Shown here: positions 2,712 to 20,419 of the stretch, piece by piece
Position numbering within the stretch: the first letter of the stretch is position 1
Layout of the letters: the number at the start of each line of letters is the position of its first letter
IMG/VR virus record: IMGVR_UViG_3300003894_000144
Span: 1-20,463 of that record
Strand: one strand, 5' to 3'
DNA: 20,463 nt
Source of the DNA: a virus
Made by a program: the position numbers and the translations under genes
Notes under the pieces: model-generated
The model's database searches: none
What the model was told of the DNA's origin: nothing
The model's input: only the letters and a program-made list of their open reading frames with translations

Positions 2712-4483
2712 TATGCGTTTACAACCTCACTTGTATGAACTGTAGCAACCCAATTAAGGTTCGTAGATGCTATGCCAGTTACTTGTATTTTAAGTCCACC
2801 GTTTGTGGTATCTGCAGATAGTGCTACTGCTGCGTTTGCTAGTCCTGATGTATGGTACAAACTGTTTACTATACCAACTCCTAATTCTGTAGTACCTGCA
2901 TTTGCAGCCCTCATAATTACACCTTTGATTTCCCAACCTGCGTAGTCATTACCATCACTCGCATCTTCACGTACAACTATTGTGCCATGAAAAGAATAAG
3001 CAGAATTATTTTGTAGGATTAACTGATTGGTTGATGTTGCTGAAGTTCCTGTTGAAGTAAGCGCAGTAGCTGTTGCATCTGTTGTTGATAAGTGTAAAAC
3101 ATACTTACCCTGTTGTGCATCGCCGCTAGAATTAATATAGTCATTAGCAAAAGCGTATTTACCAATTATACCGCCTACTCTTGCATAACTACCAATAGCA
3201 ACACCATGGCTAGCATTTGCTACAACATTTCTACCAATTGCTAAACTTTCATAACCTGAACTACTTGCTTCATGACCTATAGATATAGAGCTTGAGCCTG
3301 ATCCCAGCGCCCCTGCTTCCCTACCTATTGAAACAGTAGAGTGACTAGCTGACGCTGCTTGATAACCTATAGATACAACATAATCGCTACCTGTAGCTTG
3401 GGAACGTCCTAAAGAAATATTGTAATTGCCTGTAGATTTAGCCTGATACCCAATAGCAATACTATTAGCACCAGTAGCACCGTAGCTAGACGTGTTGTTG
3501 TCTATTACTGCAGCAAGGCTATCTGTACCAGAGGAATAGCTGTTACCCAAGGCAACGGCAGATTGACCGTTTGAAAGGCTATTACGGCCTACCGCTGTAC
3601 CCCATGTCCCACCCGAACCAACTGTTGCTGACCTACCTATTGCAAGGGCTTGTGATTGATTGGCTAATGCGTCTGTTCCAATGGCAATACTGTCACCACG
3701 TCCAGAGCCAATATCTGCACCATTACCAATAGCTACACTGTTGTACGATCCACCTGCGTTTGCTGTAGGAGTAACCGCACTTCCGTTGGGACTTTCAGCA
3801 TATAGTTCAAGCGCAGAACCAGCATCAGCAAAAGTAACAGCACCTGATCCGTCTGTTTGAAGTACTTGATTAGCTGTACCATCAGATGTAGGTAGGGTGT
3901 AGGCACCATTGACGTTGACTGTACCTGTTGTTTGAATACCTGTAGATGTAGTTTCTAACTTTTCTGAAGCATCATAGTAAAGACTAACTTTACCGTTTTG
4001 AAAAGCAATAATAGAGTTTTCAGTACCATTAGTAGTAAATTGAAGACCGCCACCCGATCTAATTCTAAGGTAACTACCCGCAAGATTATTTTCAATAATG
4101 CTAGATGTGCCATTATGGTAAAGCTCTAAATCTTGTGATGTGCCAAGTTGTATCCTATTATTTACAGCACTTGTACTATCATTAGCTTGAATATTATTAC
4201 CATTAAGTTGTAAAGCACCACCAAGCTGTGGAGAGGTATCGTTTACAAGGTCAGATGATACAGTTGCAAAACTCAATGCACCTGAACCATCTGTTTTTAG
4301 AAACTGTCCTGCAGAACCATCAGTAATAGCTGCAGTAGGTGCAGTAGCAAATACAGCTACGTTACCTGTAGCATCAGGGAATGTGATTGTACGATCTGCT
4401 GTTGGGTTTGTAAAGGATACTGTAGTCTCGTTAGCATCTGCACTAGAACCTTCAACACTAAACCCTGAGTCACTTAGGTACAA
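2711..4483 (-). CDS. Distal part of long tail fibre (YadA-like head plus C-terminal domain), separated by frameshift
   Basis: This is a 590-aa reading frame whose only start near its beginning is a TTG with no ribosome-binding site. Residues 1-45 (YLSDSGFSVEG, then a PTADRTITFPDATG motif) belong to a phage fibre segment that normally follows TKTLTNKTL. That motif ends the upstream frame, so I read this as the distal half of one fibre broken by a one-base loss near 4509. Next come two QxLxTDGSGA segments (about 60-70 and 207-217) and a linker. YadA-head-like repeats follow (about 245-440, S-x-AIG-x-x-A-x-x-x-G). The final C-terminal receptor-binding-type domain (about 450-590) contains YSFHGTIVVRE, YAGWEIKGVIMR and LSADTTNGGLKIQVTG. 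The last two modules recur in the downstream fibre. Restored to the upstream frame, the protein would be about 1,477 aa. Confidence 0.85.
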   Translation of the reverse strand: MYLSDSGFSVEGSSADANETTVSFTNPTADRTITFPDATGNVAVFATAPTAAITDGSAGQFLKTDGSGALSFATVSSDLVNDTSPQLGGALQLNGNNIQANDSTSAVNNRIQLGTSQDLELYHNGTSSIIENNLAGSYLRIRSGGGLQFTTNGTENSIIAFQNGKVSLYYDASEKLETTSTGIQTTGTVNVNGAYTLPTSDGTANQVLQTDGSGAVTFADAGSALELYAESPNGSAVTPTANAGGSYNSVAIGNGADIGSGRGDSIAIGTDALANQSQALAIGRSATVGSGGTWGTAVGRNSLSNGQSAVALGNSYSSGTDSLAAVIDNNTSSYGATGANSIAIGYQAKSTGNYNISLGRSQATGSDYVVSIGYQAASASHSTVSIGREAGALGSGSSSISIGHEASSSGYESLAIGRNVVANASHGVAIGSYARVGGIIGKYAFANDYINSSGDAQQGKYVLHLSTTDATATALTSTGTSATSTNQLILQNNSAYSFHGTIVVREDASDGNDYAGWEIKGVIMRAANAGTTELGVGIVNSLYHTSGLANAAVALSADTTNGGLKIQVTGIASTNLNWVATVHTSEVVNA

Positions 4484-7143
4484 ACCAGATACAGTTGGGC
4501 TTGTAGTGTCTTGTTAGTGAGTGTCTTAGTTGTACCTGAGAAGTATGTATCAAGTAAGTCTACATCACGATAACCTATTTCGTTACCATTGTCAAACATA
4601 AGTATAGCATCATTGTTAGCTATTGCAGTACTTGTGTCTACACTTACAGCAGAAAAGTCAGCTACTGTGTTTAGTTCTGCACCTGTAGCATTAAGACCTG
4701 TTACGTTATTAGATGTACCATTAACTGCTTGGATACGAGCTTCTACAGATTGCTGTGTTGGAATAAGGGTAGCACTGTTAGATGACATATCGTCTTCATC
4801 TACAAAACCTGTAATAGTTATGCTACCGTCTGACAAGCTACCATAGGTAATTGTACCTGTAGTAGTAATAGCACTTGACCCATTGTTAATAGAACCAAAG
4901 CCGCTTGTAATGCTACCACTGTTAAGAGCACCTACCGTAGTTACATTGCTCAGTGTATCTAATGCACCCTCAAAATATGTCTCAAAGTCAGTCAGTGCTA
5001 CCTGCTTCATAGTACCAGCATCATTGACTACAACTCTGTCTGCGTCTGCAAGAGTAGTAGATGTAGCTGACGTATCGCCATCTATAATATTTATTTCAGT
5101 AGCTGTAGCAGTTACACTTGTAAGGTCTGTAGGTGCAATACTAATGTTAGCCGTACCATCGAAAGACTGACCAGCAATTGTACGTGCAGTTTCTAGTGCA
5201 GTAGCTGTTGCTGCATTGCCAGAGGTATCCTGATTACCAGATGCATTAACACCGGGAAGGTTTATATTAGCTGTACCATCAAAGCTAACACCACCGATAG
5301 TACGGGCTGTTTGTAAAGCTGTTGCTGTAGCTGCGTTACCTGTAGTTGATCCTGACGAACCTGTTACATTACCCGTAACGTTACCTTCAATATTAGCTAC
5401 AAGTGTACCTGTAGTAATTGTAAGATCGCCTGTAGATGCACCTGTAAATGTACCTGTACCTACAGTAAACTTGTCTGCACTTTCATCCCAACCCATAAAG
5501 GCATTATCAGAGCTACCACGTTCAATAACAATACCAGCATCACTAGAAGGTGTACCTGTAGTACCATTACCTAGTTCTATTAATAAATCAGATACTACAG
5601 TGTTGGTAGTGTTGATTGTAGTAGTTGTGCCGTTTACAGTTAAGTCGCCGCCTACAATAACATTGCCTGTTGTAGTAACTGCATCAATGTATCCATGTGA
5701 CCAATAGTTAGAACTATCACCCAAGCTGTACGAACTATCTGCACTTGGTATAAGATTGGAAGCTACATCTGCTGTAACTGTAACTGTATCTGTAGCGGCG
5801 TTACCAATAGTTGTGTTACCATTAAAGGTGGCTGCGCCTGATACAGTAACAGAACCAAAAGAGTTTGATCCTGAAGATGTTACATTACCTGTAAGGTTTC
5901 CTGTTACGTCACCTGTAACATCCCCTGTTAGATCACCCGTTACATTACCAGTTACGTTTCCTGTAACATTTCCTGTAACATTACCTGTCAAATCACCAGT
6001 TACATCTCCTGTGACATCTCCTGTCAGATTTCCTGTCACGTTACCTGTAACATTGCCAGTAACATTACCTGTTACGTTACCCGTGACGTTACCTGTCAAA
6101 GTACCTGTGACTGCTGTAATGTTAGCAGCATCACCATAGATGTTTGCCCAACGAACAGAAGTAGTACCCAAGTCATATGTACTATCAGACGCAGGGTTAA
6201 GGTTTTTAGCTGTTGAGGTTGTGCCTACAAGATTACCTGTTACATCACCTGTCAAGTCTCCTGTAACGTTACCCGTGACATTGCCCGTAACGTTTCCTGT
6301 TACAGCACCTGTTACGTTGCCTGTGACGTTTCCTGTAAGTGGACCTACAAGAGATGTACCTGTAATAGTTGTACCTGTAATAGCTGCAGCACTAGAGCCA
6401 CCTATAACAGTACCATCAATAGCACCACCATTAATATCAACAGTAGTAAGTGTAGATGTACCTGTAGCAGCTAACGTAGTAAACGTACCTGCACCTGCAC
6501 TAGAGCCACCAATAGTAACACCGTCAAGTGTACCACCATTAATGTCTGCAGTGTCAGCTACAAGGCTGTCGATATTAGCTGTACCATCAATGTACAAGTT
6601 ACGCCACTCAGAGCCTGTAGCACCTAAGTCGTGTGTATCATCAGCAGAAGGAAGAAGTGCGGAAGCAATATCAGCAGTAACCGTTACAGTATCACTAGCA
6701 GCATTACCAAGAGTAGTGTTACCATTTACTGTCAGGTTAGCTGTAATGGTAGCACTTTCGTCAACCTGTAGTGTGTCAATAGTAGCAGTACCATCTAGGT
6801 ACAGGTCTTTGAACTCTACGCTAGATGTACCGAGGTCAATGTCATTATCTGTGACAGGAGTAATAACACCATCTTGGAATCTAACTTGTTCTACTGCTGC
6901 ACTGGATACCTCTACAAATACACCAACACGATTGTTTGATGTGTCTATTGAAACTTTATTAAGTGCGTCTGAGTCAGCAATGAGTGGTACGTATGCACCC
7001 TCTGCTGTTGTACCATCGTGTTTGTGTCCTGTTGAAGCATTAAACGCAGCAAGTACTTGGTCAAACTCTAAGTTTAACGGGTTAGCTCGTACAACGGCTG
7101 TTGCCACAATGTCTGCTGAAGACTGTCTTGTATATCCTGCCAC
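4474..7143 (-). CDS. Proximal part of long repeat-rich tail fibre
   Basis: This is an 889-aa frame. It starts at GTG 7143, chosen because a GGAG site lies seven bases upstream, within the end of the preceding gene. Residues 1-50 include FNASTGHKHDG, typical of the virion-attachment end of marine phage fibres. Four DLG-x(5-6)-W/F-x-x-x-Y units lie near 103, 171, 323 and 472. Tetrapeptide arrays of (N/D)(V/L)TG occupy about 268-306 and 346-423. A motif DLLIELGNGTTG, then DAGIVIERGSSDNAFMGWDE, lies near 519-560. Two GNAATATAL-x-TARTI-x-G-x-SFDGTANI repeats follow, and the frame ends in TKTLTNKTL plus ten out-of-frame residues. It is entirely beta/glycine-rich with no enzyme motif. The C-terminus is almost certainly a frameshift artefact or lesion, since the expected continuation (SPTVSGLYLSDS) is encoded in the next frame. 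Confidence 0.88.
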   Translation of the reverse strand: MAGYTRQSSADIVATAVVRANPLNLEFDQVLAAFNASTGHKHDGTTAEGAYVPLIADSDALNKVSIDTSNNRVGVFVEVSSAAVEQVRFQDGVITPVTDNDIDLGTSSVEFKDLYLDGTATIDTLQVDESATITANLTVNGNTTLGNAASDTVTVTADIASALLPSADDTHDLGATGSEWRNLYIDGTANIDSLVADTADINGGTLDGVTIGGSSAGAGTFTTLAATGTSTLTTVDINGGAIDGTVIGGSSAAAITGTTITGTSLVGPLTGNVTGNVTGAVTGNVTGNVTGNVTGDLTGDVTGNLVGTTSTAKNLNPASDSTYDLGTTSVRWANIYGDAANITAVTGTLTGNVTGNVTGNVTGNVTGNVTGNLTGDVTGDVTGDLTGNVTGNVTGNVTGNVTGDLTGDVTGDVTGNLTGNVTSSGSNSFGSVTVSGAATFNGNTTIGNAATDTVTVTADVASNLIPSADSSYSLGDSSNYWSHGYIDAVTTTGNVIVGGDLTVNGTTTTINTTNTVVSDLLIELGNGTTGTPSSDAGIVIERGSSDNAFMGWDESADKFTVGTGTFTGASTGDLTITTGTLVANIEGNVTGNVTGSSGSTTGNAATATALQTARTIGGVSFDGTANINLPGVNASGNQDTSGNAATATALETARTIAGQSFDGTANISIAPTDLTSVTATATEINIIDGDTSATSTTLADADRVVVNDAGTMKQVALTDFETYFEGALDTLSNVTTVGALNSGSITSGFGSINNGSSAITTTGTITYGSLSDGSITITGFVDEDDMSSNSATLIPTQQSVEARIQAVNGTSNNVTGLNATGAELNTVADFSAVSVDTSTAIANNDAILMFDNGNEIGYRDVDLLDTYFSGTTKTLTNKTLQAQLYLVCT
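5875..6096 (-). repeat. 12-bp coding tandem repeat array, (N/D)(V/L)TG
   Basis: Nineteen consecutive tetrapeptide units, from TLTG through runs of NVTG, DLTG and DVTG to NVTS, are encoded by 12-base units inside the long fibre. Codons for valine, threonine and glycine vary between units, so the DNA repeats are imperfect while the peptide stays regular. This points to selection on the protein repeat, probably a beta-structured shaft, and makes the array prone to copy-number change. Confidence 0.85.
6226..6342 (-). repeat. Second 12-bp coding tandem repeat array in the same fibre
   Basis: This is a shorter array of about ten tetrapeptide units (PLTG, NVTG, AVTG, DLTG, DVTG, NLVG), nearer the N-terminus of the fibre. 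It is separated from the larger array by a single DLG-x-x-x-x-x-W domain (YDLGTTSVRWANIY). The shared unit and codon variants suggest that both arrays arose by expansion and duplication of one element. Confidence 0.8.
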
Positions 7144-16832: not shown

Positions 16833-18068
16833 TTAGTATCCAAAGGTTGAATCTGCAGCCTGAAATCCTGCATTATGTGAAACTGGGTTGAAGTCCCATA
16901 AAGAACTTCTAGGTCTTGTCATTATACCATACCTAATAGCATCGTACAAGTGATCTTCTGCATTAGTATCTACATCTTCTGGATTTCTTTTATCCAAAGG
17001 GATACTAGGTAGCTGTGATATGCAGTTCGTGCAAGTCGAAAAGAACACTAACCTTGGCTCATCGGTGTACTCATCAACTTGCAAACGGCGGTGAAGCTCG
17101 TTTTTACCTGCAACCCTAGAGCCTCGTGAACGGTCTGAAGGCCTCCACCTGCATCCCTTTGCGTTCATTTGCTCTGCCAAGGAAGGGCCAGTGTCACCTC
17201 GTTTGTGCCACAGGGAGCTATCTAACACACCGTATCTTATACTACCATCGCCACTCTCAGCTTCAAGTACCATATCCGCTAGATCAGTAGCTGTAACCTT
17301 AGAACAATATAACTCTCTGTAGACAACAAGCTGCTCGCTGGGTGATACAGCAAACCAGACAACCCCTGTATGACTCCCGTAGCCGTAGTCGCAAGCTCTA
17401 AACTTAGTCCAGCTTGAGGGAATTTTAAAAGGCTCCACGACATGTATGGCTCTGTTCCACTCAGGGAAGGCAGCACCTTCATTAACATCCCAATTGCCTT
17501 CTAGTAGTTGCTTGCGTTGGTGCTCTGGTAGTGACAGAAGCATTGCTTCATAGTCGCCACTATCAGCTAAATAAGGGTTATCAAAGAGGCTGGCAGGTAT
17601 AAACCTTCTCTTGAATAGGGGTTGACCAGCTTTACTATGCCCTGCAGGGAAGCGTAATACCTCGCCAGACTCTATGTCCGTTGCCCAGAAAGGTGTATTC
17701 GGAGAGGCTGGGTCAATGAACATCTTCTTAACCCAAGCGTGACCTATGCCACCGGGGTTAGTAGTAGCTCGCATGTACAAACCTAAGTCCTTGTTTGCAC
17801 TACGTAATCTGGATCGCATATAGTCCCACGCAAAACTGGAAGACCACTGAGTGAGTTCGTCAAAGGCTACGTAGTTAAACGCCTGACCTTGGTAGCGCAT
17901 AACGTCTGTGTCTCTATCCAAGTACGACATCCAAAGTGTGCCGCCTCTTGGTGTAGTCCATTGCGACTTACGCTCAGACCACTTTATTCCGGGTATAGCT
18001 TTAGGGTATAACTCTTGGCTTTTCTGTATGAGTTCCCTCTTCTGTTGTGTGTCGTACAAGCAGACCAC
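16833..18068 (-). CDS. terL: Terminase large subunit, C-terminal part (motor Walker B and nuclease), after frameshift
   Basis: This is a 411-aa frame that begins at a GTG without a ribosome-binding site; the true gene starts in another frame at 18399. Real homology starts at about residue 11 (RELIQKSQELYPK). Walker B plus catalytic Glu is YVAFDELTQW (66-75), and the coupling motif is ATTNPGG (101-107). The RNase H-like nuclease acidic residues are likely Asp227 in ACDYGYG, Asp283 in GVLDSS and Asp376 within EDHLYDAIRYG. The protein would drive ATP-dependent packaging and cut concatemers. Because Walker A lies in the preceding frame, this fragment alone could not be an active motor. Either a shift during translation, a lesion, or a sequence error joins the two parts near 18034-18039. 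Confidence 0.88.
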   Translation of the reverse strand: MVCLYDTQQKRELIQKSQELYPKAIPGIKWSERKSQWTTPRGGTLWMSYLDRDTDVMRYQGQAFNYVAFDELTQWSSSFAWDYMRSRLRSANKDLGLYMRATTNPGGIGHAWVKKMFIDPASPNTPFWATDIESGEVLRFPAGHSKAGQPLFKRRFIPASLFDNPYLADSGDYEAMLLSLPEHQRKQLLEGNWDVNEGAAFPEWNRAIHVVEPFKIPSSWTKFRACDYGYGSHTGVVWFAVSPSEQLVVYRELYCSKVTATDLADMVLEAESGDGSIRYGVLDSSLWHKRGDTGPSLAEQMNAKGCRWRPSDRSRGSRVAGKNELHRRLQVDEYTDEPRLVFFSTCTNCISQLPSIPLDKRNPEDVDTNAEDHLYDAIRYGIMTRPRSSLWDFNPVSHNAGFQAADSTFGY

Positions 18069-18399
18069 TAAAGTCTGAGTTGTTCATATTACGTAGAGGA
18101 TCAGCTAGGGTAGCGTAAGACTTACCACCACCTGCAGCGCCACCGTACAGAACCTCACGTTCACCTGAAGCTAGATACTCTGTCTGAGGTCCGGGGTTAG
18201 GCCTAAAGACAATGTTCTGTGCTTCCTCTACTTCATACTCAGGGGGCTTAGCTACTGCTGATACCTTCTTGGTCTTCGTAGGTGTAGCGGCCTGTGTAGT
18301 TTTTTTCGAGCGCTTCGATCTGGTGTAACGTTTTTTGGAGCCGCTTGGCGTACTCACGTTTAATAATTGTAGTAAGGTGCTTTCTTTTTCTTTCGACAT
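18001..18399 (-). CDS. terL: Terminase large subunit, N-terminal part (Walker A), before frameshift
   Basis: This 132-aa frame contains the ATPase Walker A loop GGAAGGGKS at 86-94, preceded by VFRPNPGPQTEYLASGEREV, the usual start of this terminase type. The last genuine residues are about RHTTEE (116-121). After that it runs out of frame and ends in TEKPRVIP. The real continuation lies one base along in the next frame (RELIQKSQELYP). Residues 1-50 are a lysine/serine/threonine-rich extension that overlaps the end of the upstream helix-turn-helix gene in a different frame for about 150 bases. The ATG at 18399 has only a weak AAGAAA site. A GTG at 18357 is an alternative start. Confidence 0.85.
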   Translation of the reverse strand: MSKEKESTLLQLLNVSTPSGSKKRYTRSKRSKKTTQAATPTKTKKVSAVAKPPEYEVEEAQNIVFRPNPGPQTEYLASGEREVLYGGAAGGGKSYATLADPLRNMNNSDFSGLLVRHTTEEGTHTEKPRVIP

Positions 18400-18700
18400 C
18401 TATACGTTTCTTTAAGCCATCATGCGTTATATCTCTGCCTGACTGTGTAGTTAGCCACGCTGCTACTTGACGTAGGCTGTACTGCTTCAGGTGTTTTTTA
18501 GCTAACTCTAATAGCTCTAACTCCTTTGGTATGGGGTTTAACCACTCATTATCTTCAGGGTCTATCTCGTAACCAAACGGAACGTACTTACTTATTCTTG
18601 GGATACGTAGCCATACCTTTACCTTGTAAGGTACTCTAGGCAGCATCCAGTATTCGTTCTGAAGAGGTCTTTCCTTACGTAGCCTCAGTATCATCTGCAT
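18248..18700 (-). CDS. Helix-turn-helix-type DNA-binding protein near terminase genes
   Basis: This protein is about 150 aa. The start is uncertain: ATG 18700 overlaps the small terminase gene by 26 bases, an earlier GTG at 18727 is possible, and a later ATG at 18661 would remove the overlap. The core reads FGYEIDPEDNEWLNPIPKEL and then YSLRQVAAWLTTQSGRDITH followed by DGLKKRI. That resembles the HTH region of recombinases and small terminases: a helix, a turn and a recognition helix with basic residues, followed by a long basic helix (ERKRKHLTTIIKREYAKRL). It lies between the small and large terminase genes, so it may help recognise packaging sites or act as a regulator. The last 50 codons overlap the large terminase frame. 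Confidence 0.72.
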   Translation of the reverse strand: MQMILRLRKERPLQNEYWMLPRVPYKVKVWLRIPRISKYVPFGYEIDPEDNEWLNPIPKELELLELAKKHLKQYSLRQVAAWLTTQSGRDITHDGLKKRIDVERKRKHLTTIIKREYAKRLQKTLHQIEALEKNYTGRYTYEDQEGISSS

Positions 18701-19052
18701 TCTTAGGGGGTAGAATAAACAAACCACCTGTCGATTCTACGGACACCCTCTCCGTTTTGACAACTCCTGCACGGTCTAGTATCTGACCTGCAGCCATCTT
18801 CTCTTTAACACCTAGCTGGGTAGGATCGTCCAAAGCACTCGCATATGCCACTGCAGCCTTAGGACCAACCCTAGACATGTATAACTTAGTTGCCTCAAAT
18901 ATCTCATCTTTCAAAGCCTCTACTACCACCGTTGACGGTGTGTTATCACTGTACCCAGCTAAACGTTTAGCGACAACTACATCACCACCAGCCTCTTCAA
19001 AGAGCACTGCCATAAAAGCCTGTTGTTTTTCTGTAAGTTGTCTTTTACTCAT
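18675..19052 (-). CDS. terS: Terminase small subunit
   Basis: This 125-aa protein starts at ATG one base after the stop of the DUF1127 gene. The N-terminus has LTEKQQAFMAVLFEEAGGDV followed by AKRLAGYSDNT. That is the HTH pattern of small terminase subunits, which bind the phage packaging site and recruit the large subunit. A helical oligomerisation core (VVVEALKDEIFEATKLYMSR) and a conserved-looking segment with DDPTQLGVKEKMAAGQILDR follow. The end, GGLFILPPKNADDTEAT, is a flexible tail of the kind that contacts the large subunit. Position two genes before the large subunit fits. The assignment is by pattern and order. Confidence 0.8.
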   Translation of the reverse strand: MSKRQLTEKQQAFMAVLFEEAGGDVVVAKRLAGYSDNTPSTVVVEALKDEIFEATKLYMSRVGPKAAVAYASALDDPTQLGVKEKMAAGQILDRAGVVKTERVSVESTGGLFILPPKNADDTEAT

Positions 19053-19053
19053 G

Positions 19054-19203
19054 TTACTTTCCGTATGCTAACCTGTAGATTTCTGACCTATGGATGCCAA
19101 TATCTTTTAGATCATTGTCTGTTAAGTTCTGAAGTTGCCAGTAAGCTACACGCCGTAGCTGTCTTTGCTTGTAACCTTCTAACATGTTGTTAAGCCATTT
19201 CAT
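19054..19203 (-). CDS. DUF1127 (YjiS-like) microprotein
   Basis: This is a 49-aa protein, too short for most gene callers. It starts at ATG 19203 with a strong AAGGAGA site 10-12 bases upstream and ends one base before the small terminase start. The sequence has a basic first half (MKWLNNMLEGYKQRQLRR) and the DUF1127 signature in the second half: a hydrophobic helix (VAYWQLQNLTDNDL) followed by KDIGIHRSEIYRLAYGK. In alpha- and gammaproteobacteria such proteins are small cytosolic regulators linked to RNA metabolism, phosphate and stress responses. A phage copy could modulate host gene expression or RNA turnover, but the role here is inference. A promoter-like site lies just upstream. Confidence 0.88.
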   Translation of the reverse strand: MKWLNNMLEGYKQRQLRRVAYWQLQNLTDNDLKDIGIHRSEIYRLAYGK

Positions 19204-19206
19204 TGC

Positions 19207-19260
19207 ACTATCTCCTTTTATTGTTGTGCGAGATAGTTATAACATATGTATGGCTAGATT
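19207..19260 (-). promoter_or_regulatory. Promoter-like site and inverted repeat before the DUF1127-terminase block
   Basis: On the minus strand TG-T-TATAAC (extended -10, TATAAC at 19241-19236) lies about 30 bases before the DUF1127 ribosome-binding site. A -35 box 17 bases upstream is poor (TTCTAA). The 12 bases TATGTTATAACT are identical to those at the capsid promoter. An eight-base inverted repeat, ACTATCTC / GAGATAGT (19237-19230 and 19214-19207), runs from the -10 to the ribosome-binding site and may be an operator. No experimental support is available. Confidence 0.55.
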
Positions 19261-20006: not shown

Positions 20007-20237
20007 TTACGCTATCACAAAGTCTACGTGCTGACCCTGCGTAGTAAATCTGTTATGGTTTTGTGGGTGATAAGCATAAGCAGTTTCATGCCTGTACTTA
20101 TCGGACTTCTTATCTTCAGCTTTTTGTGTGACCTCTACAGTGTCACTCTTACCTGATTCAAATACAATGTTCTTGTGTGTATCAAAAGGCATAGCTGGTA
20201 AAGGAAAGTAATCCATTAAACCTAAGCTAATACTCAT
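20007..20237 (-). CDS. Small protein of unknown function
   Basis: This protein is 76 aa when started at ATG 20237, which overlaps the membrane-protein stop in an ATGA junction. A longer frame reaching upstream to 20291 would read through the previous gene and is less likely. The protein has an N-terminal hydrophobic patch (MSISLGLMDYFPLPAMPFD), a charged middle (KSDTVEVTQKAEDKKSDKYR) and a His/Gln-rich end (HPQNHNRFTTQGQHVDFV). No family was recognised. The ATGA junction and the tight gap to the next gene place it in the same operon. Confidence 0.7.
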   Translation of the reverse strand: MSISLGLMDYFPLPAMPFDTHKNIVFESGKSDTVEVTQKAEDKKSDKYRHETAYAYHPQNHNRFTTQGQHVDFVIA

Positions 20238-20419
20238 ATCGTAAGTATCCACTGCACAAACGCTAGGAATACGATGAAAGCAACAACCCACTTCATATTC
20301 TTACGCAGCCACTTAGGAAAGTCCTTATGGGCAGTCTTCCAGCTTACCTTCTTTAGCCAACCAAAGAAGCCCCACAAGAGGCTTGCTAAAGTATGGGCTG
20401 TACCAATAATGTTCCACAT
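20234..20419 (-). CDS. Small membrane protein
   Basis: This 61-aa protein has an amphipathic, tryptophan-rich N-terminal part (LWGFFGWLKK), a basic middle (KDFPKWLRKNMK) and one clear hydrophobic C-terminal helix (WVVAFIVFLAFVQWILTI). The orientation would be basic loop inside. The ATG is preceded by a GGAAGG site. Its size and single membrane helix would fit a holin- or spanin-like role, but no lysis genes are visible beside it, so that remains speculation. The stop overlaps the next start. Confidence 0.72.
   Translation of the reverse strand: MWNIIGTAHTLASLLWGFFGWLKKVSWKTAHKDFPKWLRKNMKWVVAFIVFLAFVQWILTI

Follow-up and report, generated by a model that had tools for sequence, protein, structure and literature searches.

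The DNA examined here, a stretch of 20,463 nucleotides from an IMG/VR virus record that we refer to as the window, carries a genuine phage gene that encodes a short DUF1127 protein and belongs to HMO-2011-type podoviruses infecting Roseobacter-group bacteria. A conserved hairpin in the leader of this gene, the 5′ arm of which overlaps the promoter, is predicted to mask the Shine-Dalgarno sequence in read-through RNA, a point absent from the preliminary description of the window. The group-wide family assignment, the recurrence of the family in unrelated phages and the leader element all appear to be unreported in the literature searched. HMO-2011-type phages are a dominant and broadly distributed marine group (PMC9038755), and the naming of the gene as DUF1127 together with its switch-like leader offers a direct starting point for understanding the control of Roseobacter hosts by these phages. 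The whole explanation, in which a leader-switched phage DUF1127 would act on a host pathway, is in our judgment fairly likely.

A DUF1127 gene of HMO-2011-type phages

The minus-strand frame at 19203–19054 encodes 49 amino acids (MKWLNNMLEGYKQRQLRRVAYWQLQNLTDNDLKDIGIHRSEIYRLAYGK, from the open reading frame and translation of the window), which confirms the frame named in the preliminary description, where no strand was given. The DUF1127 identity proposed there also holds: a Pfam profile search, the check it had suggested, matched PF06568 (DUF1127) with E=6.7e-9 and 35.8 bits against a curated cut-off of 23.3, aligning residues 11–43 on profile positions 5–37 of 37, and matches with E<=0.001 were obtained for 40/40 aligned group members. 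The L-x-D-x-x-L-x-D-I-G motif of DUF1127 is present in the short window protein (LTDNDLKDIGIHR), and L24, L32, D34, G36 and R39 are invariant across the phage group. Searches with the 49-residue protein gave no match in NCBIfam and weak matches only in PHROGs. An AlphaFold2 model places three helices at residues 2–26, 29–34 and 39–47 (mean pLDDT 89.6, pTM 0.60). No significant relatives of solved structure were found by sequence (best E=0.048) or by fold (all E above 2), consistent with the statement that no DUF1127 structure is available (PMC12501420); among the viral structure models with weak matches are some named DUF1127 or YjiS-like, including one from Atu_ph07. Compared with the cellular DUF1127/YjiS-like family (CcaF1 of Rhodobacter sphaeroides, the small Agrobacterium DUF1127 proteins, enterobacterial YjiS), the window protein has the same domain over nearly the whole profile and is alike in size, basic character and predicted all-helical fold, but it is phage-borne, contains a group-specific RRVAYWQLQ segment and is read from a hairpin-bearing leader. 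The LTDxxLKDIGI segment of the window frame (19054–19203) also bears a weak likeness to a SAM domain (PF22931, 21.6 bits), as found in 8 of 40 members; the score is below that profile's own cut-off of 25, so a SAM-domain relationship was rejected, and the resemblance is possibly a shared helical motif.

The frame is not a chance one, because 16 other IMG/VR contigs hold relatives at 82–100% identity, over 100 hold more distant ones, and pN/pS is about 0.2. Between the two nearest clades the ratio is 0.21 and synonymous changes dominate, indicating purifying selection. A scan of IMG/VR with the window protein gave 123 relatives, 80 of which were kept; a TerS match lies downstream on the same strand in 79 of the 80, and the exception ends about 40 bases past the gene. 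Loci were also selected by TerL so that the conservation count avoids circularity. Among 43 such loci with at least 2.5 kb upstream, the DUF1127 frame is present in 40, and in 41 after a profile search that did not require a ribosome site. The preliminary description had proposed counts of this kind beside terS as a check.

The TerL of the window is 82% identical to that of Roseobacter phage CRP-603 and 73% identical to that of SAR116 phage HMO-2011, and its gene order, terS-terL-portal-coat, matches the HMO-2011-type group; the window is thus a fragment of an HMO-2011-type podovirus, in line with the phage origin claimed earlier. Judging from its relatives, the host is most likely Roseobacter. 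Homologues in the same genomic neighbourhood include CRP-603 gp69, already annotated as DUF1127, and CRP-3 gp47 (CRP3_gp47). The latter is the ORF47 described in 2019 only as one of three genes exclusive to RCA phages in comparison with HMO-2011, of unknown function (PMC6918029), and the leader element is undescribed in the literature searched. Judged by title and abstract, none of the papers that a text search found on DUF1127 with phage is about a phage-encoded DUF1127.

The leader hairpin and its predicted effect

On the minus strand, the sequence that precedes the gene is TGTTATAACTATCTCGCACAACAATAAAAGGAGATAGTGCAATG. The ribosome-binding site described earlier is present as the Shine-Dalgarno sequence AAAGGAG, 8–9 nt from the ATG; AGGAG lies at 19212..19216 (minus strand), and an AGGAG-type motif occurs in nearly all relatives. 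A 5′ arm, ACTATCTC (19230..19237, minus strand), pairs with a 3′ arm, GAGATAGT (19207..19214, minus strand), which contains most of the Shine-Dalgarno sequence and would mask it in a perfect 8-bp stem (fold z-scores −3.5 and −3.6). Pairing and covariation define the 5′ arm, which overlaps both a −10-like element and the stretch between this element and the predicted start. In the MFE fold of the full-length leader, codons at 19193..19198 (minus strand) also pair with 19250–19255 (AGCCAU/AUGGCU) in a predicted outer helix round the start codon. The calculated fold of the window leader is −18.7 kcal/mol (z −3.6), and that of the promoter-started RNA is −0.6.

The preliminary description had also proposed a promoter-like site, and here the outcome is divided. 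The −10-like element, TG-T-TATAAC at 19241–19236 (TATAAC at 19236..19241, minus strand, with TGT before it as in an extended −10), predicts a start near 19229, and it is supported by its conservation: such a motif stands 18–58 nt upstream in 48 of 51 DUF1127 leaders as against 20 of 256 controls. On the other side, no −35 box is recognisable upstream of this element in the window, and a generic two-hexamer promoter scan did not report the TATAAC site and found sites no more numerous than in shuffles. A two-hexamer sigma-70 promoter was rejected, as it was not found in the window leader. TTGACA-N17-TATAACT-like promoters elsewhere in HMO-2011-type genomes (CRP-1, CRP-603) support TATAACT as a real −10. 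An Rfam search found no family in the window, and no mapped transcript start for HMO-2011-type phages was found in the literature searched. Another recurring element of the TATAACTATAAGGCTACCCAG type stands upstream of a late gene with no masking stem (the CRP-603 43221–44171 leader; L160, L193) and may be a second late promoter; other TATAACTA sites upstream of late genes (L160, L193) have no such stem.

The hairpin was noticed first and then tested on the same loci, in a set of 51 non-redundant DUF1127 leaders and 256 non-redundant control leaders taken from these loci. With non-redundancy judged by shared 7-mers only, and with p-values that treat the not fully independent leaders of related phages as independent, the predicted probability that the Shine-Dalgarno sequence is unpaired is 0.20 in the leaders versus 0.44 in the controls (p=5.9e-9), and the stem that pairs it is 8.1 bp versus 4.7 bp long (p=3.9e-13). 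The control with the longest stem (L157) is a DUF1127 leader under another start, so this contrast is slightly understated. Half of the leaders beat 95% of their upstream-shuffled versions, compared with 8% of controls. When the RNA is cut at the seventh base after the −10 motif, predicted Shine-Dalgarno accessibility rises from 0.23 to 0.73 (48 leaders, p=1.8e-16 on the same footing), as against 0.45 to 0.50 in controls cut at the same distances. Start offsets of 6–11 nt give accessibilities of 0.67–0.74 and an offset of 4 gives 0.50; 11 of the 48 leaders gain 0.2 or less on truncation, and in a few leaders the 5′ arm lies wholly upstream of the −10 element.

The arms change in sequence yet stay complementary, as in CRP-3 (TATAATTATCTCT/GGAGATAATTATG), CRP-235 (AAACTCTCCTTAGT/ACTAAGGAGAGTTT) and the loci L052 (TTCTCCTATGT/ACATAGGAGAA) and L039 (GCTCCTTGGTA/TATCAAGGAGC). 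Between the window and CRP-3 a C-G pair becomes U-A by change on both sides, in CRP-212 a U-A pair becomes C-G, and in L147 both partners of one pair are lost. Swapping arms between leaders lowers the mean helix score from 20.0 to 14.8, and 0/20,000 permutations reach the observed sum (48 leaders).

In the model that these data suggest, the DUF1127 gene would have its own extended −10 promoter. In read-through RNA from upstream, the promoter-overlapping sequence would pair with the Shine-Dalgarno and start region and leave DUF1127 untranslated, and RNA started at the own promoter, without the 5′ arm, would be translated. We consider these three steps probable, with both the starts and the translational effect taken from prediction. 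Through the switch, production of the DUF1127 protein would depend on the firing of a single promoter, which probably heads the terminase/late unit. We infer from this a timing and an effect, in which DUF1127 would be silent in read-through RNA and made when its own promoter fires, and the phage protein would be a timed copy of a host regulator.

The arrangement has a precedent in the T4 genes e, soc, 49 and I-TevI, whose ribosome-binding site is hidden by a helix in the longer early transcripts; gene e is a well-documented case in which late-promoter transcripts are without the 5′ part of the helix (PMC3014915). In both systems a helix hides the Shine-Dalgarno sequence in long transcripts, here according to prediction and covariation. 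The position of the enriched −10 motif suggests that, as in T4, RNA from the gene's own promoter would begin past the 5′ arm. The phage leader differs in phage group and gene, in a −10 like that of host sigma-70 promoters (TATAAC/TATAAT) where T4 late promoters have TATAAATA, and in that its effect is a predicted one. The S. meliloti duf1127 mRNA leader (PMC12218461) likewise places a DUF1127 gene under RNA-structure-dependent control, but by an upstream ORF with a Rho-type attenuator, whereas the phage leader would mask its own Shine-Dalgarno sequence directly.

The inverted repeat could instead be a DNA operator or another RNA element, such as a 5′ stability stem, a thermometer or a site of protein autoregulation, and not a latch that depends on the start site. 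The repeat does overlap a promoter-like element with no more than a predicted start, and if transcription began a few bases before that point, every transcript would contain the whole stem; several leaders (CRP-1, CRP-9, CRP-345) also contain two or three TATAAC copies. However, the arm sequences differ widely between clades while the pairing with the Shine-Dalgarno sequence is kept, which would be unnecessary for an operator or protein site recognised by its sequence, and we regard such an element as unlikely.

Distribution and origin of the gene

A whole-record profile search placed PF06568 over its cut-off in 11/11 cultured HMO-2011-type Roseobacter phages examined (CRP-1, 2, 3, 9, 13, 207, 212, 235, 345, 603 and 738). 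The same search found none in HMO-2011 (SAR116 host), in the Pelagibacter phages HTVC033P, HTVC103P and HTVC115P, or in Sinorhizobium phiM6, Rhizobium RHph_N3_19, Manatee Spring phage and Aeromonas phage 1233. DUF1127-like frames lie elsewhere in the genome in the cobaviruses SIO1, ICBM1, P12053L, CRP-4 and CRP-5, and also in CRP-6, CRP-118, CRP-403 and CRP-7; those in CRP-113 and CRP-171 score below the PF06568 cut-off. Further ones are found in phiM12 and kin, Atu_ph07, Phosso and Ochrobactrum phage OC, and jumbo phages are among the carriers, several of the assignments in unrelated phages being tblastn matches with E near 0.01–1 that were profile-checked only in part. The SIO1 frame is unannotated and lies between gp19 (MazG-like) and the ribonucleotide reductase gene, an order identical in CRP-5. 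The frames are at 4001–4147 of locus L007 (CRP-113), 3001–3147 of L104 (CRP-171) and 2501–2671 of L235 (SIO1), and those of CRP-113 and SIO1 have no annotated gene over them or marginal overlap only.

Homologues in phage records belong to phages of Rhodobacterales or Rhizobiales hosts, save for weak matches to Enterococcus phage helicase genes and three Salmonella-labelled records, so the earlier suggestion that the gene marks an alphaproteobacterial host is supported. An approximate YjiS query retrieved only the three Salmonella-labelled records, two of which are about 0.5 Mb with bacterial names, and an approximate host-like DUF1127 query gave no phage match, a result that carries no evidential weight. 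In a class-wide sample of host genomes DUF1127 was found in 108/289, the smallest matching genome being 1.8 Mb, and 11 of the 20 listed genomes without a match were 1.7 Mb or less. A putative lack of DUF1127 in streamlined hosts such as SAR11 agrees with this genome-size pattern. We raise only tentatively the broader idea that Rhodobacterales and Rhizobiales phages several times independently took up DUF1127 to reprogram a pathway that SAR11-like streamlined hosts lack, and that one of the most abundant phage groups in the ocean keeps the gene locked by an RNA hairpin from which only transcripts of its own promoter are free.

In a sample of 198 Ruegeria-family genomes, the closest cellular proteins are 43–53% identical over 32–46 residues; a narrower alignment search gave two cellular loci only. 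In a protein tree the HMO-type proteins form a group (51 of 52 tips, support 0.77) separate from the cobavirus and CRP-113/171 proteins; the tree rests on about 45 columns, so that its deeper branches are not to be trusted. One of the closest cellular proteins, the product of a 46-aa frame in a genome of 2.4 Mb, is placed within the phage proteins; the frames on either side, read from their translations, are transporter-like (EamA-type) and SDR-dehydrogenase-like. The leader of the closest short cellular gene (L132) has no hairpin by eye. A host origin of the phage gene is likely from these comparisons, with the direction and number of transfers beyond the resolution of 45 columns.

Possible action of the protein and the terminase neighbourhood

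As a basic, helical protein of a host-regulator class, phage DUF1127 may act on the pathway served by the host's own DUF1127 proteins, either through RNA binding and turnover, like CcaF1 of Rhodobacter, or by binding a sensor kinase such as PhoR. Modulation of a host pathway in this broad sense, through either target, is by analogy with the cellular proteins slightly better than an even prospect. The literature on DUF1127 is itself divided between RNA binding (CcaF1) and PhoR binding (PMC12501420), and phage copies give this family of disputed roles natural variants selected by phages.

The preliminary description proposed host mRNA control, and the phage protein could be mainly an RNA-binding factor that alters the stability of host or phage mRNA and sRNA, a role compatible with the leader switch. 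In Rhodobacter, CcaF1 is an RNA-binding protein with an effect on sRNA maturation (PMC12501420). The phage protein, with 5 Arg, 4 Lys and a net charge of +4, is basic, and R17 and R18 are invariant in the group beside R39. Against this, Arg makes up 10% of its residues, compared with an average of 14% given for the family in PMC12501420, and Salmonella YjiS was not associated with RNA (PMC11707872); as a main role, RNA binding is somewhat doubtful. We think it rather improbable that the phage protein imitates host DUF1127, or competes with it, at PhoR or another sensor kinase and thereby alters phosphate uptake, which would be equally compatible with the switch. Sinorhizobium, Rhodobacter and E. 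coli DUF1127 proteins restore an Agrobacterium triple mutant, and the same study showed a direct interaction with PhoR (PMC12501420); phoH is near the DUF1127 frame in SIO1. However, phosphate uptake rises when host DUF1127 is lost, and a working additional copy would therefore be expected to reduce it. A phage has no obvious use for such a reduction, and a dominant-negative copy would be needed.

The terminase link drawn earlier stands in part: in nearly all members of the HMO-2011-type group the DUF1127 gene precedes terS/terL and shares their strand, but the gap to terS ranges from −4 nt to about 4 kb in relatives and cobavirus copies lie elsewhere. Given this variable gap and the cobavirus gene between mazG and the ribonucleotide reductase gene, the adjacency is probably not functional. 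In the window, the terS homologue (small terminase subunit; 18675..19052, minus strand) is 41–58% identical to the annotated terS of CRP-3, CRP-13 and CRP-603, the DUF1127 stop codon is 1 nt before its ATG, and its Shine-Dalgarno sequence (GGAAAG) is inside the last DUF1127 codons. This tight junction of the window clade would suit a packaging partner of terS, a role that is highly improbable and was rejected because the distance to terS varies up to about 4 kb, cobaviruses hold the gene in a nucleotide-metabolism module, unrelated alphaproteobacterial phages hold DUF1127-like genes elsewhere in the genome, and HMO-2011 and pelagiphage relatives are without the gene despite the same terminase type.

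The large terminase gene (16833..18399, minus strand) is in two frames, 18399–18001 and 18068–16833, both matching phrog_979 (terminase large subunit). The frames overlap at the break (18068–18001), and terL is intact in the near relatives L011 and L013, so the break is specific to this contig and not a conserved programmed frameshift; it may be a sequencing or assembly error or a real mutation. An 889-aa minus-strand frame at 4474–7143, with a GTG start and long GNVTGNVTG repeats, is tail-fibre or adhesin-like. Two further minus-strand frames, 20007–20291 (94 aa, GTG) and 20234–20419 (61 aa, ATG), overlap in different reading frames; both have matches in near relatives (L010–L016), and the longer one may in fact begin downstream of its GTG.
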